Notes under the pieces: model-generated
What the model was told of the DNA's origin: nothing
Databases searched by the model: none
The model's input: the letters and a program-made list of their open reading frames with translations, nothing else
Source of the DNA: an uncultured Pelagibacteraceae bacterium
GTDB lineage: Bacteria > Pseudomonadota > Alphaproteobacteria > Pelagibacterales > AG-422-B15
Length of the DNA: 50,950 nt
NCBI GenBank assembly: GCA_902617525.1
Contig: CACMWW010000007.1
Coordinates: 1-50,950 of the forward strand
Direction: 5' to 3'
Shown: one piece after another, positions 1 to 12,056 of the stretch
Layout: the number at the start of each line of letters is the position of its first letter
How positions within the stretch are numbered: the first letter of the stretch is position 1
Translations under genes and position numbers: made by a program

Positions 1-99
1 CATTTCATTTCTAATTAGAACCTCACTTATAGCTTTTCTGATTATTTCAGAAACCTTGTATGATCTACTAGTATTGATAGTTTTTCTTTTTATTATCAC
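1..99 (-). CDS. rbfA: RbfA, 30S ribosome-binding factor (N-terminal part, cut by window edge)
   Basis: Reading leftward from a GTG at 99-97 gives 33 codons, beginning MIIKRKTINTSRSYKVSEII and continuing to the window edge. This resembles the amphipathic N-terminal helix of RbfA, with its R-x-x-K-V-S-E-x-I-R-x-A-I-S-E-V-L pattern. RbfA is a cold-shock and ribosome maturation factor that binds the 30S subunit near the 16S rRNA 5' end. The GTG overlaps the stop codon of the preceding infB-derived frame, which matches the usual infB-rbfA order and supports both calls. Only the first third of the protein is visible, so the identification rests partly on context. Confidence 0.75.
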   Translation of the reverse strand, partial: MIIKRKTINTSRSYKVSEIIRKAISEVLIRNEM

Positions 100-308
100 A
101 GTGTTTGTGCGATTTCTTCAATATTAAAAGCCTCAATAAAATCACCTACCTCAAAATCGCTAAATTCCTTTATACTGATTCCACATTCAGTCCCAGATTT
201 TACTTCGTTGGTTTCATTTTTTTCCCTTTTGAGGCTTAAGATATCACCATCAAAAACTATTTTTTCATTTCTTTTTACTTTTACCTTAGCATTTTTACTT
301 ACTGATCC
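96..308 (-). pseudogene. infB: infB 3' fragment (IF-2 C2 domain end) inside the parA frame
   Basis: The last 69-70 codons of the chimeric frame match the end of IF-2, the GTPase that places fMet-tRNA on the 30S subunit. In the complete factor this piece is most of the C2 beta-barrel that holds fMet-tRNA. The G domain and everything upstream are absent from the window. IF-2 is essential in bacteria, so a complete infB must exist elsewhere if this junction is real. The following overlapping rbfA start shows that true infB-rbfA chromosomal sequence lies to the left of the join. Confidence 0.8.
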
Positions 309-785
309 TTCTAAAGCAAAAAATTCACATTGAAGTGGGACTATGATAGAATCAGCTGCGGTCATTGCCATGACAGTGAGAAGACTTAAAGCTGGTGGGC
401 AATCAATAAAAACAAAACTAAAATCATTTAATGAGTTTTGGTCTGTTAAAATTTTTTTAAGTGTAAAAGCTCTATCATTTACTTCAGCAAGTTCAGGTTC
501 AATACCTGATAGATCCACAGTGGATGGAATGATTTTTAAATTTTCTATTTCAGTATTTTGAATTGCATCAAATAAATTGCTTTGAGATGCAAGAACTTCA
601 TAAATTGAATTACTTCTGTTTTGATAATCTATACCTAATCCTGTACTAGCGTTTCCTTGAGGGTCGAGATCAATAATTAAAACTTTTTCCCCAATAGCGG
701 CTAAAGCTGTGGATAAGTTTATTGCTGTTGTAGTTTTTCCCACTCCACCTTTCTGATTTGAGATAGCTATTATTTTATTTTTCAT
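96..785 (-). CDS. Chimeric frame: ParA N-terminal ATPase half joined to IF-2 C-terminus
   Basis: Residues 1-160 are a ParA/Soj chromosome-partition ATPase. They have the deviant Walker A K12-GGVGKT, the A' motif DLDPQGN at 39-45 and Walker B FVFIDCPP at 124-131, and stop at CEFFALEG, where ParA normally continues with about 100 more residues. Residues 161-229 are not ParA: SVSKNAKVKVKRNEK and the later KREKNETNEVKSG-ECGI and GDFIEAFNIEEIAQTL are the end of translation initiation factor IF-2. The join falls at about 308-300, in frame, at an EG dipeptide that both families could share. The ATG overlaps the rsmG stop by one base (TAATG), the normal rsmG-parA arrangement. ParA would lack its C-terminal region and the IF-2 part lacks the first strands of its C2 barrel, so the product is probably non-functional as either. 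It may be a contig chimera rather than a real fusion. Confidence 0.85.
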   Translation of the reverse strand: MKNKIIAISNQKGGVGKTTTAINLSTALAAIGEKVLIIDLDPQGNASTGLGIDYQNRSNSIYEVLASQSNLFDAIQNTEIENLKIIPSTVDLSGIEPELAEVNDRAFTLKKILTDQNSLNDFSFVFIDCPPALSLLTVMAMTAADSIIVPLQCEFFALEGSVSKNAKVKVKRNEKIVFDGDILSLKREKNETNEVKSGTECGISIKEFSDFEVGDFIEAFNIEEIAQTL

Positions 786-1408
786 TAAGTAATTGATTTT
801 ATTATATTTTTTAGTTCCAAAATAAAAGAACCCTTTTCTCTCTCATTTTCATGCAATATATGAGTAAAATCCCAACATTTAGTAGCTTGCACGATCTCTT
901 CTTCTATATGTACACCTTTATGCAAAAGCAATGTAGTGTTTTTTTTGCATATATTGTAACTAATTGATAATAAATGATTTAATTGACTAACAGCTCTTGC
1001 TAAAATGATATCAAATTTTTTATTTTCAATTTTTTCTGCTTTGATGGGAATCACTTCAGTGTTTTTAAGATCTAAGTTAACAATACATTTGTTAAGAAAC
1101 GATACTCTTTTAGGTCTATTTTCGCATAAAAAAACCTTATTTTTAGAGCCAAATAATATCGAAACTGGTATACCTGGAAGGCCAGCACCGCTGCCAATAT
1201 CAATGATATTATTTCCATTGGTAGTTATAAACTGAGCTAATCTTAAAGAATCATAGAAATGTCTTATCCAGATAAAGTTTTTATCATTCTTTGATATTAA
1301 GTTTTGGTCTTCTGCCAAAATCATTTCCCTGAATTCAGCCAATTTTTCAATTGTTTCACGTGAAACATTTGGCAAGAGCTCTTTTAGAGCATCAGGCGAA
1401 TCAATCAT
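785..1408 (-). CDS. rsmG: 16S rRNA (guanine-527-N7) methyltransferase RsmG
   Basis: RsmG (GidB) is an SAM-dependent methyltransferase that makes m7G527 in 16S rRNA. The 207-residue length is normal. The SAM-binding motif DIGSGAGLPGI lies at residues 70-80 and a typical N-terminal region with the peptide NVSRETIEK lies near residue 14. The DNA encoding that peptide is a perfect parS palindrome, so the gene also carries a centromere-like site. The gene sits 10 bases after mnmG and overlaps parA by one base, the classical mnmG-rsmG-parA order next to a bacterial origin. The start is the first ATG in frame and gives the normal N-terminus. Confidence 0.93.
   Translation of the reverse strand: MIDSPDALKELLPNVSRETIEKLAEFREMILAEDQNLISKNDKNFIWIRHFYDSLRLAQFITTNGNNIIDIGSGAGLPGIPVSILFGSKNKVFLCENRPKRVSFLNKCIVNLDLKNTEVIPIKAEKIENKKFDIILARAVSQLNHLLSISYNICKKNTTLLLHKGVHIEEEIVQATKCWDFTHILHENEREKGSFILELKNIIKSIT
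1352..1367. promoter_or_regulatory. parS: parS centromere site (perfect 16-bp palindrome) inside rsmG
   Basis: The sequence TGTTTCACGTGAAACA matches the established ParB-binding parS consensus exactly on both strands. It lies within codons for N-V-S-R-E-T of rsmG, a place where parS is known in many bacteria. I noticed no second perfect copy in the window by eye. It marks this region as origin-proximal and implies that a ParB protein exists in the genome, although parB is not seen here because the parA frame is interrupted. Confidence 0.92.
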
Positions 1409-1418
1409 TATTTTGATA

Positions 1419-3287
1419 TTAAGCTAATTTTTGTGATTTAGCTTTGGTTTTTATATATGATAAAATAACACTGAGGGCCGCAGGTGTAACACCATCAATT
1501 CTTGATGCTTGAGATAAGTTTTTAGGCTTAATTTTTGTAAGCTTTTCAATGATTTCTGTTGATAAACTGGGAATTAATTCGTATTTAAGATTAGGCGGAA
1601 TTTCAACTTTTTCTTCTTTAGTTAGTGAAATGATCTCACTTTCTTGCTTCTTTAGATAGCCTTTGTAATGAGCCTCTGTTGTTATTTGATCAAGAATTTC
1701 ATTGCTATATTGCTTTAGATTTAAGTCAAAGATCTCATCTATTTTATCAATATCGATATTCGGATAAGCTAATAAGTCAAAAGCTGATCTTTTTTTGCCA
1801 TCTTGATTAATTTGAACTCCAATCTTTGAAAGTGCATAAGGTGTAACATATTGATTTTTAACAATTTTATTGACTTTTTCTAGTTCAATTTTTTTAGTTG
1901 AATACTTTTCATATCTACCAGCTTCAACTAACCCTAAATTGTACCCAACCTCTGTTAATCTTAAATCTGCATTATCTGCTCTTAATAACAATCTGTATTC
2001 TGCCCTAGAAGTGAACATTCTGTAGGGCTCAGTAACCCCTTTTAGAGTTAAGTCGTCAATCATTACACCAATGTATGAGTCGTTTCTTGAAAAAACATGT
2101 TCTTTATTACTTAGGGAAATTGCAGCATTCAAACCTGCTACAAGCCCTTGCGCAGCAGCTTCCTCATAACCTGTTGTGCCGTTAATTTGACCAGCAAGAT
2201 AAAGACCTTTTATTTTTTTTGTTTCCAATGTTTGGTAAAGTTCTTGTGGATCAATAAAATCATATTCAATTGCATAACCGTGCCTTACTATTTTAGCATT
2301 CTCTAAACCATTGATTTTACTTATGAATTCGTCCTGTACGTCCGACGGGAGTGAAGTTGAGATGCCATTTGGATATATTAAATCACTATCAAGTCCTTCT
2401 GGTTCTAAGAAAATTTGATGCCTCAATTTATCTGCAAATTTAACAACTTTATCTTCTACAGAAGGGCAATATCTTGGCCCTGTACCACTGATTTGACCTG
2501 AGTAAATAGCTGATTTTGTTATATTTTTTTGAATTATATTGTGAACGGCCTCATTTGTATAAGTCATGTGGCACGGTAATTGTTCATTATGAGTTTTTGT
2601 GGTTAAAAATGAAAAGTAAGAATGCTCATCGTCAGCTTCCTGTTTTTCAAGTTTAGAAAAGTCTATTGTATTTTTATCCAGTCTCGCAGGTGTCCCAGTT
2701 TTTAAACGTCCAATATTAAAGCCAGTTTTATAGAGTGAGTCTGCAAGTCCTATTGAGGGAGAATCGCCATGTCTTCCAGCCGGAATAGTTTTGTCACCTA
2801 AGTGGATTAAGCCATTCAAAAATGTACCAGTTGTGATGATAACTTTTTTGGTAGATATTTTTTTACCACTTGCGCAAATCACACCAGCAATTTGTTTATT
2901 ATTATCAAAAATTAAATCCTCTACAGGGTCAAACAAAAGTTCTAAATTTTGTGTATTTTCAATCTCCTTCTGCATGTGTTTTTTATAGAGCTTTCTATCC
3001 GATTGAGCTCTTGGTCCTCTCACTGCAGGGCCTTTTGTTCTATTGAGTAATCTATATTGAATACTTGATAAATCAGCTATACGCCCCATTATTCCATCCA
3101 GAGCATCGATTTCTCTTACTAAATGGCCCTTACCAAGACCACCGATTGCTGGGTTACAGGACATCTCACCAATGGTATCGAATTTATGGCTGATTAAGAG
3201 GGTTTTTGCACCAACACGTGCAGAAGTAGTCGCAGCTTCACAGCCAGCATGCCCTCCTCCAACTACTACAACATCATAACTAGTCAT
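1419..3287 (-). CDS. mnmG: tRNA uridine 5-carboxymethylaminomethyl modification enzyme MnmG
   Basis: MnmG (GidA) is the FAD enzyme that, with MnmE, installs cmnm5 on the wobble uridine of several tRNAs. The 622-residue length is standard. The N-terminal Rossmann FAD motif [12 protein letters not shown] spans residues 6-17, followed by the family signature [23 protein letters not shown]. Two further signatures are [16 protein letters not shown] and [18 protein letters not shown]. The C-terminus [16 protein letters not shown] is the helical region that contacts MnmE and tRNA. It lies 48 bases downstream of mnmE on the same strand and 10 bases before rsmG, so the three are probably co-transcribed. 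Confidence 0.97.
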
Positions 3288-3335
3288 GATTAAGTTAATT
3301 AAATTAACTTAGACTAATTGCAATCAATTATTTTT

Positions 3336-4631
3336 TTATTTACCGATGCAAAAATCTTTAAAAATAACTTCTAAATATTCTTCAACATCAACATGACCGG
3401 TTATTTTTCCGATTTCTTGAATGGCTAATCTTAACTCTTCAACCATAAGTTCAGAATTAACTTTTAAATCTATACTTTTTGCACTGAGTAAACTTTGTAT
3501 TGAATTTTGAACACCTAGAATGTATCGAGTCTTTGTTGGTATTGTATCGGTGTAACTTATGAATTTGCTTGATACGTGCTCAGCAATTTTATTGATTAAA
3601 TTATCAATACCACTTCCATTTGAAACTGAAATATTGATACAGCCTTCTTTTTTATAATTATTATGCAAGTCACATTTATTTAGAACTGTAAGTCGATCCT
3701 GATGTAACTCAACATCATTTGGATCATCAAATAATTCCAAAACTAAATTTGCTTCTTTTATTTTACTTTGAGTTATTTCAATTCCTTTTTTCTCGATCTC
3801 GTCTTCAGTGTCTCTTAAACCCGCAGTGTCTGTTAAAATGACTGGAAATCCAGCAATATTTAGCCTTGCTTCAATCGCGTCTCTGGTCGTGCCCTCCCTA
3901 TCAGACACAATTGCAACATCACGATTAGCAAGTGAATTTATCAAACTTGATTTACCAACATTTGGAGATCCAATGATGGCGACTTTATAACCGTCTCTTA
4001 ATATTTCTCCTTGATTACGTTGTTTTAAGTGTTCATTCATTTCGTCTAAAAGTTTTTCAATTTTTGAATTGATGTTGTTAAGAACATTTTCAGGAATGTC
4101 TTCATCTGCAAAATCTATATCCGCTTCGAGATAAGCAACTAACTCTATTAGAGACTTTCTCCATGATAAATATAATTTATTCAATGAACCATTCATCTGG
4201 GATAGTGCTTGATTATGTTGGATTTCAGTTTGCGCATTAATTAGATCTCCCATAGCTTCAATTGCTGTAAGATCCATTTTGTTATTCACAAATGCTCTTT
4301 TTGAAAATTCACCGGGTTGAGCAAGTCTCAACTGATCAATATTAGAAAGTGATTTAAGTAAAAGCTGAACAGTTGTATGGCCGCCATGAACATGAAACTC
4401 AACAACATCTTCACCTGTGAAACTTTTTGGTTTTGAGAAAAATACAGCAAGACCTTTGTCAATTAAGTTACCGCTTTCTGGATCATAAAATTCTGATTTT
4501 GTTAAGACGTTTGGATCGAAGTGACTCTTTCTAGAAATGGTTTTAAGAGCTGTGAGCGCTAGATGTCCAGAGACTCTTACAACCGCTAACCCCGCAACAC
4601 CACTGGCAGTCGATAGTGCAAAAATTGTCAT
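3336..4631 (-). CDS. mnmE: tRNA modification GTPase MnmE
   Basis: MnmE (TrmE) is the potassium-activated GTPase partner of MnmG. The N-terminal folate-binding domain starts MTIFALSTASGVAGLAVVRVSG. The G domain inserted in the helical domain has the P-loop GSPNVGKSS at 221-229, the switch region EGTTRD at 246-251 and DTAGLRDTEDEIE from 268. The protein ends in CIGK, the invariant C-terminal C-x-GK motif whose cysteine is needed for modification. The 431-residue length is slightly short but all domains are present. Its start overlaps the stop of the upstream ferredoxin-like gene by four bases, so the two are translationally coupled. Confidence 0.96.
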   Translation of the reverse strand: MTIFALSTASGVAGLAVVRVSGHLALTALKTISRKSHFDPNVLTKSEFYDPESGNLIDKGLAVFFSKPKSFTGEDVVEFHVHGGHTTVQLLLKSLSNIDQLRLAQPGEFSKRAFVNNKMDLTAIEAMGDLINAQTEIQHNQALSQMNGSLNKLYLSWRKSLIELVAYLEADIDFADEDIPENVLNNINSKIEKLLDEMNEHLKQRNQGEILRDGYKVAIIGSPNVGKSSLINSLANRDVAIVSDREGTTRDAIEARLNIAGFPVILTDTAGLRDTEDEIEKKGIEITQSKIKEANLVLELFDDPNDVELHQDRLTVLNKCDLHNNYKKEGCINISVSNGSGIDNLINKIAEHVSSKFISYTDTIPTKTRYILGVQNSIQSLLSAKSIDLKVNSELMVEELRLAIQEIGKITGHVDVEEYLEVIFKDFCIGK

Positions 4632-4948
4632 TTTTTTATTTGGAGATTTTCAGCGATACGGTCATTAATAAGATGTTCATTGATTACTTGGTCCACCTCT
4701 TCTTCTGTTTTACACGAGTACCAAACATTATCTGGATAAACAACAAGTGTGGGACCAAATTCACAATGATCTAAACAGCCTGATGCATTTATTCTTATTT
4801 TCTTATCGGAGACTAATTCTTTTGTTTTTTTCTTCATATAGGCTCGAAGCACTGTTGAATTTTTAGAAGCACAACAACCTTTTGGGTGACCTTCAGGTCT
4901 TTGGTTTGTACAAAAAAATACGTGTCTTTCAAAAAATTTGTTAGTCAT
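4628..4948 (-). CDS. Thioredoxin-like [2Fe-2S] ferredoxin family protein
   Basis: This 106-residue protein resembles the stand-alone thioredoxin-fold [2Fe-2S] ferredoxins (COG3411 type). The likely cluster ligands are C13, C25 or C26, C58 and C62, with the last pair in ASGCLDHCEFGP, the family pattern. The N-terminus HVFFCTNQRPEGHPKGCC is also characteristic. An electron-transfer role is expected for the family, but the partner is unknown. It starts a leftward unit with mnmE, overlapping it by four bases. Only 30 bases separate its start from the divergent ogt gene, so the two promoters must overlap. Confidence 0.8.
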   Translation of the reverse strand: MTNKFFERHVFFCTNQRPEGHPKGCCASKNSTVLRAYMKKKTKELVSDKKIRINASGCLDHCEFGPTLVVYPDNVWYSCKTEEEVDQVINEHLINDRIAENLQIKK

Positions 4949-4967
4949 AAAGTCAAAAAATTATAAT
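4938..4967 (+). promoter_or_regulatory. Candidate sigma-70-type promoter for ogt, close to the start codon
   Basis: TTGTTA at 4938-4943 and a perfect TATAAT at 4962-4967 are separated by 18 bases. Only 11 bases lie between TATAAT and the ogt ATG at 4979. Transcription starting about 7 bases after the -10 box would leave a leader of a few bases, so the mRNA may be nearly leaderless. No Shine-Dalgarno sequence is present, which fits. Confidence 0.45.
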
Positions 4968-4978
4968 ATCTTATATAT

Positions 4979-5434
4979 ATGAGCAGCTACGTTTTCAAAT
5001 CAATCATTGGCAATATTGAGCTTGTCTCAAGCAAAAATAGAATAATTGCAGTTCATAGAACAAGGAAAAAGCCTAACAAGACAGAAGATAAGCTTCTAAA
5101 AAGATCTGCGCTTCAAATTAAAATGTATCTTGCGCGCAAAAGACGATCCCTTAATTTTCCAACTAAACAAATGGGCACAAAATTTCAAAACCGTGTTTGG
5201 AATTATTTACAAAGAATACCTTATGGTAGAACAACAACTTATGGAGACATTGCAAGGAAATTAAGAACTTCGCCTCGAGCTGTTGGGGGCGCATTGGGAA
5301 GAAACAATCTGATGATGACAGTTCCATGTCATAGAGTCGTAGGCAGTGATGGCAAACTCACTGGATTTACATCAGTGGGCGGGTTAAGTACCAAAAGAAA
5401 TTTACTGAACATTGAACAAAAAACTAAAAAATAA
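4979..5434 (+). CDS. ogt: Methylated-DNA--protein-cysteine methyltransferase
   Basis: This suicide repair protein transfers the methyl group from O6-methylguanine in DNA to its own cysteine. The active-site motif PCHRV is at residues 116-120 with acceptor Cys117. The helix-turn-helix part has the typical RIPYGRTTTYGDIA and RAVGGALGRNN blocks. The protein is 151 residues, so the N-terminal domain is short and it lacks the Ada regulatory domain. The unusually basic central segment, about residues 26-56, is weakly conserved. Its 3' end overlaps the proposed TTG start of apt by 23 bases. The choice between ogt and ada-like names is by domain content only. Confidence 0.9.
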   Translation: MSSYVFKSIIGNIELVSSKNRIIAVHRTRKKPNKTEDKLLKRSALQIKMYLARKRRSLNFPTKQMGTKFQNRVWNYLQRIPYGRTTTYGDIARKLRTSPRAVGGALGRNNLMMTVPCHRVVGSDGKLTGFTSVGGLSTKRNLLNIEQKTKK

Positions 5435-5951
5435 ACTCAAGAAGACAATCAGGGTAATCCCTGATTTCCCAAAAAAGGGAATTATGTTTCAGGACATAAC
5501 ATCTGTTACAGACAATAAATTGCTCTTCAAAGAAGTTATTAACGAAATTTCAAGATATGCTAGTAAGCATAAATTTACCAAAATCGCAGGTGTAGAAGCA
5601 AGGGGTTTCATCTTTGGTGCTGCAGTTGCCTTTAAACTGGGCCTTCCTTTTGTTCCGATTAGAAAAAAAGGAAAGCTTCCTGGAAAAGTTATACGGCAAA
5701 AATATTCTCTTGAGTACGGCAACGACGAGATTCAAGTTCATAGTAATTCGATCACTTCACGAGATAGGATTTTAATAATTGATGACTTAATTGCGACTGG
5801 CGGTACCGCTTTAGCTTCAGCAAAACTGATCTCTAAATGCAAAGTAAAAAATATTGAATTTTATTTTATAATTGATCTGAAAAATGTTGGGGGTTCACAA
5901 AAATTAGGAAAGAAATTTAAAATGTCTTCGATTTTAGAGGCTGAAGGGTAA
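5412..5951 (+). CDS. apt: Adenine phosphoribosyltransferase
   Basis: Apt salvages adenine to AMP using PRPP. The N-terminal signature IRVIPDFPKKGIMFQDIT is diagnostic, and the PRPP-binding motif LIIDDLIATGGTA lies at about residues 121-133. VEARGFIFGAAVA at 61-73 is also typical. The 179-residue length is standard. The start taken is TTG at 5412 because no ATG or GTG gives the conserved N-terminus; this overlaps ogt by 23 bases and implies coupled translation. It ends 12 bases from the convergent rho gene. Confidence 0.93.
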   Translation: MNKKLKNKLKKTIRVIPDFPKKGIMFQDITSVTDNKLLFKEVINEISRYASKHKFTKIAGVEARGFIFGAAVAFKLGLPFVPIRKKGKLPGKVIRQKYSLEYGNDEIQVHSNSITSRDRILIIDDLIATGGTALASAKLISKCKVKNIEFYFIIDLKNVGGSQKLGKKFKMSSILEAEG

Positions 5952-5963
5952 CTGAAGTTTAAG

Positions 5964-7229
5964 TTACTTATTCATGGACTGGAAGAAATCTGCGTTATCT
6001 TTTGTTTCTTTCAGTTTACCTAGCAAGAACTCAATAGAGTCCATAGTCCCCATTGGGTTAAGAATACGTCTAAGAACGTACATTTTTTGAAGTTCGTCTT
6101 TATCAAGCAGTATCTCTTCTTTTCGAGTACCAGACTTAGTAATGTCAATTGCAGGATATATTCTTTTATCAGCAACTTTTCTGTCCAATATAATTTCTGA
6201 GTTACCGGTACCTTTAAATTCCTCAAAAATTACCTCATCCATTCTACTTCCTGTGTCAATCAGAGCAGTTGAAATAATAGTTAGTGAACCGCCATCTTCA
6301 ATATTTCTGGCTGCACCAAAAAATCTCTTTGGTCTTTGTAGTGCGTTTGCATCAACACCACCTGTTAATACTTTTCCTGAACTTGGAACAACCGTATTGT
6401 AAGCACGACCCAATCTTGTAATGGAATCTAAAAGAATAACTACATCTTTTTTATGCTCTACTAATCTCTTTGCTTTATTGATCACCATTTCAGCAACCTG
6501 CACGTGACGTGATGCAGGCTCATCAAATGTTGAGCTGACAACCTCTCCTTTGACAGAGCGTTGCATGTCGGTAACTTCCTCTGGTCTCTCATCAATTAAT
6601 AAAACCATCAAATAACATTCTGGGTGATTATCAGTAATTGAATGTGCAATATTTTGAAGTAATACCGTTTTACCAGTTCTTGGGGGTGAAACAATAAGTG
6701 CCCTTTGACCCTTGCCAATTGGCGCAACCAAATCGATTACTCTAGAACTTTGATCACTAGCTGGTTTTTCAGTTTCTAATCTGATTTGCTCATCAGGATA
6801 AAGAGGTGTCAGGTTATCAAAGTTAATTTTGTTTCTACTTTTTTCGGTCTCTTCGTAATTGATGGTATCAATTTTTAATAATGCAAAATAACGTTCACCG
6901 TCCTTTGGTGCTCTGATTGGACCTTCAACAGTGTCTCCTGATCTTAATCCAAATCTTTTGATTTGACTTGGACTTACATAAATATCATCAGGACCCGGAA
7001 GATAATTGGCCTCCATTGATCTTAAAAAACCAAACCCATCCTGTAAAACTTCTAAAACTCCTTCACCGTCAATATCTTTGCTGTCACTCGCAAGAGTTTT
7101 CAGTATTTCAAACAGCATATCTTGTGTACGCATTGAACTGGCATTTTCAACGCCAAGTTCCTCCGCATAAACAAGAAGTTCTTGTGGAGTTTTTTTCTTA
7201 AGGTCTCTTAATTTTAAGTTTTTAGCCAT
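5964..7229 (-). CDS. rho: Transcription termination factor Rho
   Basis: Rho is the hexameric RNA helicase that ends transcription at Rho-dependent terminators. The N-terminal Rho-N domain [19 protein letters not shown] is followed by the RNA-binding cold-shock fold with GFGFLR at 65-70. The ATPase core has the P-loop SPPRTGKT at 181-188 and the Q-loop/R-loop region near [10 protein letters not shown]. The 421-residue length is normal. It follows hemJ after 77 bases, as in many alphaproteobacteria. Because neighbouring convergent genes leave no room for intrinsic terminators, Rho may matter more than usual here (inference). Confidence 0.97.
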
Positions 7230-7306
7230 TCGTAATAATGATGATGATAATGTGGAAAATAGTTTGGAAGCTGCTTTCTAACCGTAATCGTTAAATATAG
7301 CAAGTT

Positions 7307-7750
7307 TTATATTGGTTTAAAAATAACCAGAAATACGACAATTATCATTAAAACCGTTGGAAATTCATTGATAATTCTAAAAAAACGCTCTGATTTTGGC
7401 CTTTTATCCTCTTGAAACTCCCTTGTTAATTTTGAGAAATACCCATGAACTCCAGATAAGAGGATCACAAATATGATTTTTAATTGAAGCCATAGTTGAA
7501 ACAGCGCATCAATACCCAAGTTTGATATCAACGCTAAACCAAACAACCATGAAAATATCATTGCTGGATTCATAATAATTTTAAGTAAACGAAATTCCAT
7601 TAATTTAAAAGTCTCTGACGAGTCAGACCCCACCTCTTTACTCCAATGATAGACAAATAATCTTGGCAAATATAATAAACCCGCCATCCATGCTATAACG
7701 CTGATGATGTGCAAACTAAGAAATAAATTATATAAAAAAATTGAATTCAT
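7307..7750 (-). CDS. hemJ: Protoporphyrinogen IX oxidase HemJ
   Basis: HemJ is the membrane-bound, oxygen-independent protoporphyrinogen oxidase found in many alphaproteobacteria. The 147-residue protein has four predicted membrane helices. The first holds the conserved His14 in LSLHIISVIAWMAGLLYLPRL, and a third-helix region contains SGVHGYFSKLTREF. These match the family signatures with the conserved histidines. It overlaps hemH by four bases and forms the unit hemE-hemH-hemJ, the last three steps before and at heme formation, so context strongly supports the function. Confidence 0.9.
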   Translation of the reverse strand: MNSIFLYNLFLSLHIISVIAWMAGLLYLPRLFVYHWSKEVGSDSSETFKLMEFRLLKIIMNPAMIFSWLFGLALISNLGIDALFQLWLQLKIIFVILLSGVHGYFSKLTREFQEDKRPKSERFFRIINEFPTVLMIIVVFLVIFKPI

Positions 7751-8766
7751 CTTAATTCTTGATCACATTGTTTAAACGTTGCTGGACATATTTTTTGCCT
7801 GATATTACCACTCTCAATTTTTTCAGACTCACTAACTATTTCAGATAGGCTTTCTATAAATGTTTGATCAATATTTAATGACTCAGATCTATAATAATGC
7901 TTACAGCCTAGATCACTTGCAAGTTCTTGGTACTCGATATCTAATTCAACAAGTGTTTCAGAGTGATCCGAAACAAACGCAATTGGGACAATAACAAGCG
8001 CCCTATCTTCGTTAATTGCGTTTTCAATTTCACTTGGTGTTGTTGGTTCAAGCCATTTAACTGGGGTAACTTTACTTTGGTAAGCCAAAACATGATCTTC
8101 ATAACCATGAATGCCCTGCATGACCGCCTTCACTGTTTGCTCCACTTGCCACTGATATGGATCACCTTTCTTAATGATTGATACGGGTAAACTGTGAGCG
8201 GAAAACAGAACTCTTACTTTCTTGTCTTTGACGTGGTTTATTTTGTCTTGGATCAGTTTTTGATGGGCTTTTATTAGTTTCGCGTCATATGGATAACAAC
8301 AGGTGTATTTTGTTTTTGTATTTAATTCCTGGTTATGGGCTTCTTTGAACCATGCGTCCAGAGAAGATTTTGTTGTTGTTGTGGAGTACTGTGGATACAA
8401 GGGCAGTAAAAATATTTTGTCTGGGTTATAGTCTTTGACCTTTGAAACGACCTCGGATGTCAATGGGTGCCAATATCTCATACAAACAAATACCTTGTTC
8501 TCGATGCCTTTGTTTTTTAACTCTTTTTGAAGGGCCTCAGCTTGGGAGTTGGTAATTTCAAGAATAGGTGATTTACCGCCTATTTCGGCATAAATTTCAG
8601 TGGCCTCTTTGGTGCGACGAGAAGATATAAGCCTTGCCAATAAATACCTGAAGGGGTTAGGAAGTCTAAATATGTTAGGATCATTAAACAGATTAAATAA
8701 AAAAGGTTTTACGCTTTCTTGTTTGTCTGGTCCGCCCAAATTAAATAAAACTACCGCTGTTTTCAT
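7747..8766 (-). CDS. hemH: Ferrochelatase
   Basis: Ferrochelatase inserts Fe(II) into protoporphyrin IX to give heme. The N-terminus KTAVVLFNLGGPDKQESVKPFL is typical. The catalytic-site stretch FSAHSLP lies near residue 190, and FVSDHSETLVELDIEY in the C-terminal half carries the second metal-site acidic residues. The length of 339 is usual for the bacterial enzyme. It overlaps hemE by four bases and hemJ by four bases. The last 15 residues contain two cysteines (ICPATFKQCDQ), as in many proteobacterial relatives; no cluster role is claimed. Confidence 0.96.
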   Translation of the reverse strand: MKTAVVLFNLGGPDKQESVKPFLFNLFNDPNIFRLPNPFRYLLARLISSRRTKEATEIYAEIGGKSPILEITNSQAEALQKELKNKGIENKVFVCMRYWHPLTSEVVSKVKDYNPDKIFLLPLYPQYSTTTTKSSLDAWFKEAHNQELNTKTKYTCCYPYDAKLIKAHQKLIQDKINHVKDKKVRVLFSAHSLPVSIIKKGDPYQWQVEQTVKAVMQGIHGYEDHVLAYQSKVTPVKWLEPTTPSEIENAINEDRALVIVPIAFVSDHSETLVELDIEYQELASDLGCKHYYRSESLNIDQTFIESLSEIVSESEKIESGNIRQKICPATFKQCDQELR

Positions 8767-11433: not shown

Positions 11434-12056
11434 TGTTATTGGTTGGTGTAACAGGATCTATTGGGATGGGAAAATCAACAGTTGCCCAAATGTTTAAAGA
11501 GCATGGTTATGGGGTTTATAATGCAGACGATACAGTTCATTATATTTATGAAAATGATGAAGAGGTAATAGCAAAAGTAGAGAGCAAATTCCCAGGTTCT
11601 ACAAAAGATGGTGCAGTAAATCGATTGGCGCTAAGAGACATATTAAACAAAGAGCCTGACAAATTTAGAGATTTAGAACAAATTGTTCACCCTGTAACAA
11701 GAAAATATCAAATAATTTATATAAAAAAATTAATTGAAGAAGGAAAGGCGGGTTGTGTCTTGGATATCCCACTTCTTTTTGAAACTGGAGGAGAAAAGTA
11801 CGTAGATATTTCTATTGTTGTTACAGCGTCTGAGGAAACACAAAAGTCAAGGGTGGTTTCAGACAGAAAAGTGCCATTAGAAATTTTTAACTCTATTAAA
11901 GGCCAACAAATGCCAGATAGAGATAAGCTAAAAAAAGCAGATTACATTATTTCAACCGATAGCGATATTGAGGAAACTAAATCTGAGGTTAAAGAAGTCG
12001 CAGCAAAAATTAAATTGATTAATCCCAAAGCGTGGAATACCTTCTTTAATCAATGA
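11433..12056 (+). CDS. coaE: Dephospho-CoA kinase
   Basis: CoaE phosphorylates dephospho-CoA at the 3' hydroxyl, the last step of CoA synthesis. The P-loop GSIGMGKST lies at residues 8-16, Asp32-Asp33 in YNADDTVH match the conserved substrate region, and VLDIPLLFETGGEKYVD is the family signature. The length of 207 residues is standard. It starts within the aroE stop codon and its own stop overlaps dnaQ by four bases, indicating one coupled operon. Confidence 0.95.
   Translation: MLLVGVTGSIGMGKSTVAQMFKEHGYGVYNADDTVHYIYENDEEVIAKVESKFPGSTKDGAVNRLALRDILNKEPDKFRDLEQIVHPVTRKYQIIYIKKLIEEGKAGCVLDIPLLFETGGEKYVDISIVVTASEETQKSRVVSDRKVPLEIFNSIKGQQMPDRDKLKKADYIISTDSDIEETKSEVKEVAAKIKLINPKAWNTFFNQ

Follow-up and report, generated by a model that had tools for sequence, protein, structure and literature searches.

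An in-frame ParA–IF-2 fusion at a Pelagibacterales contig end, most likely a chimera of multiple displacement amplification

The left end of a contig from an uncultured Pelagibacteraceae bacterium carries a reading frame that begins as ParA, the chromosome-partition ATPase, and finishes as the translation factor IF-2. This join of parA to infB is most likely a chimera made in multiple displacement amplification (MDA), and not a real gene. The window, that is, the whole stretch of DNA analysed, is the complete contig G000:C7 (50,950 bases), one of 36 contigs in an assembly of 1.10 Mb that is 86.07% complete.

The case carries a caution. Amplification can, most likely, fuse two conserved genes cleanly and in frame, and protein catalogues then carry such joins as proteins (in this instance, as P0001). 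The artefact is exposed when the contig end is set against relatives, through the combination of a distant inverted match, a short overlap, and a lack of recurrence. A genuine join would imply a cell with a broken essential translation factor.

The fusion frame and the loci of its halves

The open-frame list of the window places the fusion at 785–96 on the minus strand, with 229 codons. Residues 4–161 match the Pfam family AAA_31 (E 1.3e-57), which identifies residues 1–160 as ParA, while the profile TIGR00487 matches window positions 99–311 on the minus strand with its own positions 516–586 of 587, which identifies residues 161–229 as the end of IF-2. The GTG start codon of rbfA, at 99–97, overlaps the TGA of infB by four bases. 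The same infB/rbfA overlap is present in the relative G019, whose RbfA protein matches window positions 1–96 at 81%. A preliminary description, made from the sequence alone, had read the frame as ParA to residue 160, then the last 69 residues of IF-2, then rbfA in its usual overlap, and the two profiles and the GTG/TGA overlap agree on exactly this arrangement. It had also held that ParA loses its C-terminal region and IF-2 its G domain, and both losses are borne out. Intact relatives have a ParA of 262 amino acids; here the ParA part stops at residue 160, so the C-terminal part of the ATPase is missing. The IF-2 part is confined to the end of the profile and scores 67.6 bits against a TIGR00487 cut-off of 424.4; most of IF-2, including the G domain, is missing. 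The two frames upstream of parA are those that we take to be rsmG (gidB) and mnmG (gidA) (Table 1). A search of Rfam over window positions 1–8000 returned no matches.

Table 1. Features at the left end of the window, with the evidence for each
Feature	Positions	Strand	Evidence
rbfA, first 33 codons; gene cut by the contig end	1..99	-	4-base overlap with infB stop; protein match
infB, last 69 codons and stop (IF-2 C-terminal end), in frame with parA	96..305	-	TIGR00487
parA, codons 1–160 (N-terminal part, chromosome-partition ATPase)	306..785	-	AAA_31; DNA 97.7% identical to parA of G019 as far as the join
Shared bases TAGAAGG at the join	307..313	-	Ends and starts of parA and infB matches in relatives
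rsmG (gidB), presumed; usual neighbour upstream of parA	785..1408	-	Order mnmG-rsmG-parA-parB in G023
mnmG (gidA), presumed; usual neighbour	1419..3287	-	Open frame; G023 gene order

Each half of the fusion is an ordinary piece of one normal Pelagibacterales locus, either mnmG-rsmG-parA-parB or infB-rbfA-truB (the gene after rbfA in G019 being presumably truB). In relatives these loci are separate and intact, as seen in G023 for the parA side and in G019 for the infB side, whereas here they are joined. Window positions 307–50947 are colinear with positions 12026–64618 of contig G019:C4, apart from one divergent stretch near 23.1–24.1 kb and an additional 1.9 kb in G019. Window positions 1–313, however, align to positions 72720–72408 of the same contig, in inverse orientation. 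The partners of the join are 60.4 kb apart in G019 and also in G015, with inverse orientation in both. Judged against relatives, the second segment is therefore inverted relative to the genome, as in an MDA inverted chimera.

The search of relatives covered 59 genomes, comprising the draft itself, 35 genus mates, and 23 genomes of another family in the order. By the positions of the matches listed, parA and infB share a contig in 12 of the 35 genus mates (G002, G004, G006, G012, G013, G015, G019, G020, G022, G023, G026, and G028), where they are on opposite strands in every case (12/12) and about 56–60 kb apart. In the remaining genus mates, the two genes are on different contigs, or one of them is absent among the matches listed. 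The matches listed for the other family place both genes on one contig in 18 of 23 genomes, on the same strand in all of these (18/18) and about 36–45 kb apart. The strand layout of parA and infB is thus a point of difference in itself, being opposite in this genus and the same in the other family, and there is an old rearrangement around the two loci between them.

Many of the parA matches in relatives end at frame base 479, and the infB matches start at base 473 (four loci) or 475 (G023). The two halves overlap at TAGAAGG, and the contig ends 306 bases beyond. The length of this overlap, as judged by comparison with relatives, is estimated at about seven bases. The preliminary description had offered two readings, an assembly or amplification chimera to which a short shared sequence could have given rise, or a real chromosome rearrangement. 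Such a sequence is indeed found at the join, and the separation of the loci by about 60 kb, together with their inversion in relatives, speaks for the chimera. Judged from relatives, the junction has the short complementary sequence of an MDA chimera. Against the MDA reading, TAGAAGG is exact in the parA of only 16 of 29 relatives (L009–L037), and in the infB of only two of five (G014 and G021).

The open frame across the join calls for no special explanation. In the one pair of genes compared, G019 parA and infB have 380 7-mers in common that run in the same coding direction, and 200 of these are in frame. About one seven-base join in two is therefore expected to leave the frame open, so the open frame here does not point to selection and is probably due to chance.

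Recurrence of the join and content of the draft

No match listed in the 58 other genomes spans the join. Strong ParA matches listed there reach at most query residue 196, and IF-2 matches start at residues 156–158. The IF-2 part was likewise reached in none of 28 related loci, where the matched query residues end at or before 197, and a degenerate pattern of the junction had no occurrence in 84,980 species genomes (a collection in which the window's own record may be left out). Among the matches listed, the junction is thus absent from independent genomes, as is the case for an MDA chimera. The comparison with related genomes that had been proposed for the same junction has therefore been made, and its outcome, that the join is not seen again, favours an artefact. 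Among the papers listed by a literature search on ParA–IF-2 fusions, none names such a fusion in its title or the opening of its abstract.

Protein collections give a similar picture. A search with the fusion protein covered 5.8 billion proteins, of which the 8,000 candidates sharing most words with the query were scored and the best 120 listed. Among these 120, full coverage of the query, with both the ParA and the IF-2 part, is confined to the window's own protein, P0001. A fusion in a close relative would be expected to rank above the intact ParAs, given 480 bits against 338 for the best intact ParA. When the proteins listed by this search and by a search with an IF-2 query (802 amino acids) are taken together, ParA and IF-2 motifs co-occur only in P0001 among 240 proteins; the IF-2 search admits only proteins of 0.55–1.75 times the query length, and a fusion of the present length is outside this range. 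The residues CEFFALEG are followed by LSQLI in 111 of 117 listed proteins. One of the others is P0001, and the remaining five continue differently or stop. Both halves have close intact counterparts: the IF-2 clusters P0142, P0149, P0150, and P0151 (799–800 amino acids) have 68 of the 69 tail residues in common with the fusion, and the intact ParA P0003 shares 158 of the 160 residues of the ParA part. Consequently, parA and infB are intact in very close populations.

Two of the five CEFFALEG proteins with other continuations, P0012 and P0079, have tails that resemble sequencing adapter. More broadly, the public ParA entries P0012, P0029, P0030, and P0079 end in tails such as LSLIHI, LSIIHI, or SYTHLTLPTI. 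Since LSLIHI is the translation of what we take to be the end of the Nextera adapter, these entries look like reads running into adapter.

Within the draft, a TIGR00487 search found no second infB, its other matches, in frames on C5 and C8, falling far short of the cut-off. Similarly, the full IF-2 of G004 has a good match only at the C7 end (88%, query residues 730–802 of 802), and matches the same places on C5 and C8 weakly. No rbfA was found elsewhere in the draft, either by a family search or with the RbfA protein of G019 as query. A family search that was positive in 10 of 14 control genomes found no parB in the draft, and neither did the parB of G023 as query, which was positive in four of four relatives. 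The ParA C-terminus was not found either: the full protein P0002 matches only the C7 end, up to query residue 196 of 262 at most, and, weakly, a frame on C2. The draft shows no infB front and no ParA C-terminus, and hence does not show the two genes in intact form, nor the reciprocal junction.

These searches also bear on what the preliminary description said of the surrounding genome. Its proposal to look for complete parA, parB, and infB has been carried out and none was found. The duplicated infB end that it had envisaged is not shown, as the draft reveals no infB besides this piece. Its remark that parB is not beside parA holds, and extends to the rest of the assembly, in which both the family search and the G023 query came back empty.

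Amplification and alternative origins

The steps that might have produced the join can be outlined as follows. A growing strand, having copied rsmG and parA up to TTAGAAGG, would have been displaced, and its displaced 3' end would then have base-paired in infB with the complement of TAGAAGG. From there, phi29 polymerase would have continued into infB and then into rbfA. The assembler would have kept the join at the contig edge, with the contig stopping about one sequencing fragment past it. No correct path would have competed in the assembly, since the parA C-terminus with parB, the front of infB, and the rest of rbfA are all missing from the draft. The amplified source was probably a single cell.

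The main type of MDA chimera is an inverted join at a short shared sequence, and such chimeras have been characterised by Lasken and Stockwell (2007, PMC1855051) in DNA amplified from a single E. coli cell. According to the figures cited here from that study, 406 of 475 MDA chimeras were inverted, and 76.8% were primed at two or more complementary bases, up to 21; the explanation put forward is that displaced 3' ends prime on nearby strands. Segments less than 10 kb apart were joined in 337 of the 406 inverted chimeras, and only 34.8% of the inverted chimeras of more than 10 kb had at least two complementary bases. By these figures for span and complementarity, a 60-kb join with seven shared bases belongs to a minority type. 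The present join is like the inverted chimeras of PMC1855051 in that its second segment is inverted and the intervening stretch left out, in its short shared sequence (seven bases, within their 2–21), and in that the DNA is probably from one cell. Unlike most of them, it spans about 60 kb, and so lacks the proximity that is typical of these chimeras, though not defining. It also differs in resting on a single occurrence, in assembled sequence instead of reads.

A single-cell origin is suggested by names. Of the 25 Pelagibacterales records among the related loci, 24 have AG- names (10 of those 24 titles are prefixed MAG), and names of this form are used for GORG SAGs in PMC11247762. From these names of relatives, we infer that the window's genome is a SAG. 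It would thus resemble the marine SAGs of the SCGC workflow, since the names of its relatives have the form of that collection (PMC11247762). For the single-cell workflow that produced GORG-Tropics, the benchmark gives 1.5 misassemblies per 100 kb, a figure obtained on cultures and with misassembly types not separated in that section (PMC11247762). At such a rate, one join of this sort in a 1.1-Mb draft is unsurprising. The same source describes SAGs as less prone to chimerism than MAGs, by which is meant sequence from other organisms and not internal rearrangement.

As a control, 62 contig ends of the assembly were examined, namely 60 of 2–2.5 kb and both ends of the window, leaving out the right ends of C28–C36 and the left end of C36. 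The reference stretches were G025:C1, 240 kb of G015:C1, and G019:C4. To these, 25 of the 62 ends map. In 24 of the 25, colinearity reaches to within one base of where the contig stops, so normal ends are not mistaken for chimeras by this test. Among those mapped, only C7 is broken, at its left end. Whether chimeric ends are in general excess in the assembly was also considered, and no such excess was found, on the strength of the 24 colinear ends; the 37 unmapped ends say nothing on this point.

Instead of template switching during amplification, the source of the join might have been a misjoin by the assembly software, a chimeric fragment in the library, or DNA of a neighbouring well. We regard this as improbable, although it would leave the same signature, with the join at the end of a contig and next to sequence that is missing. 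Short-read assemblers usually work with k-mers longer than seven bases, so the reads must already have contained the join, which argues against a misjoin. A source in another well might seem to be indicated by DNA identity to six relatives, which is 79.3–86.6% in the infB tail against 90.0–97.9% in parA. However, pairs of relatives that share 96.4–97.5% in parA have only 80.7–85.9% in the infB tail. The low identity of the tail is thus normal here, and no foreign source is needed to account for it. Foreign DNA as the origin of the infB tail was rejected on this contrast between relatives.

Less probable again is a real inversion of about 60 kb in the chromosome of this cell, with breaks inside parA and infB and the reciprocal junction in a gap. 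The inverse match some 60 kb away is exactly the geometry it would leave, the differing layouts of parA and infB in the two families show that these loci do rearrange over long times, and the other mapped contig ends of the assembly are not chimeric. Yet infB and parA would both be broken; the draft shows a second copy of neither, and infB is essential in the bacteria studied. Moreover, the inversion is common to no listed relative, and the contig stops 306 bases past the overlap, without continuing through rbfA to truB as in G019. It is just as hard to credit a living Pelagibacterales cell in which such an inversion splits parA and infB, and which either has a second infB copy lost in a gap or represents a last generation. 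Finally, a real, functional ParA–IF-2 fusion protein has next to no probability and was rejected, because, for all that the frame is open through the join and both parts are well conserved, its ParA part ends at 160 of 262 residues, its IF-2 part has no G domain, no second protein with both parts is among the 120 listed, and about half of the shared 7-mers would have joined in frame anyway.

Variation along the rest of the contig

Beyond the join, the identity of window positions 307–50950 to G019, G025, and G015 drops stepwise, from about 95.6% over the first 5.6 kb to 86–94% thereafter, depending on the relative. The pattern is as if recombination had mixed lineages in blocks. At window positions 5948–5951, these three relatives carry about 1.9 kb (in G019, L040:8672–10502) between two genes that are presumably apt and rho. 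This insert holds two reading frames, of 311 and 297 amino acids, that are missing from the window. The G019 copy is 99.5–99.6% identical to those of G025 and G015, against 98.2–98.6% on the parA–apt side and 89.6–93.1% on the rho side. Since its identity is above that of both flanks, the stretch looks like part of a recently shared block.
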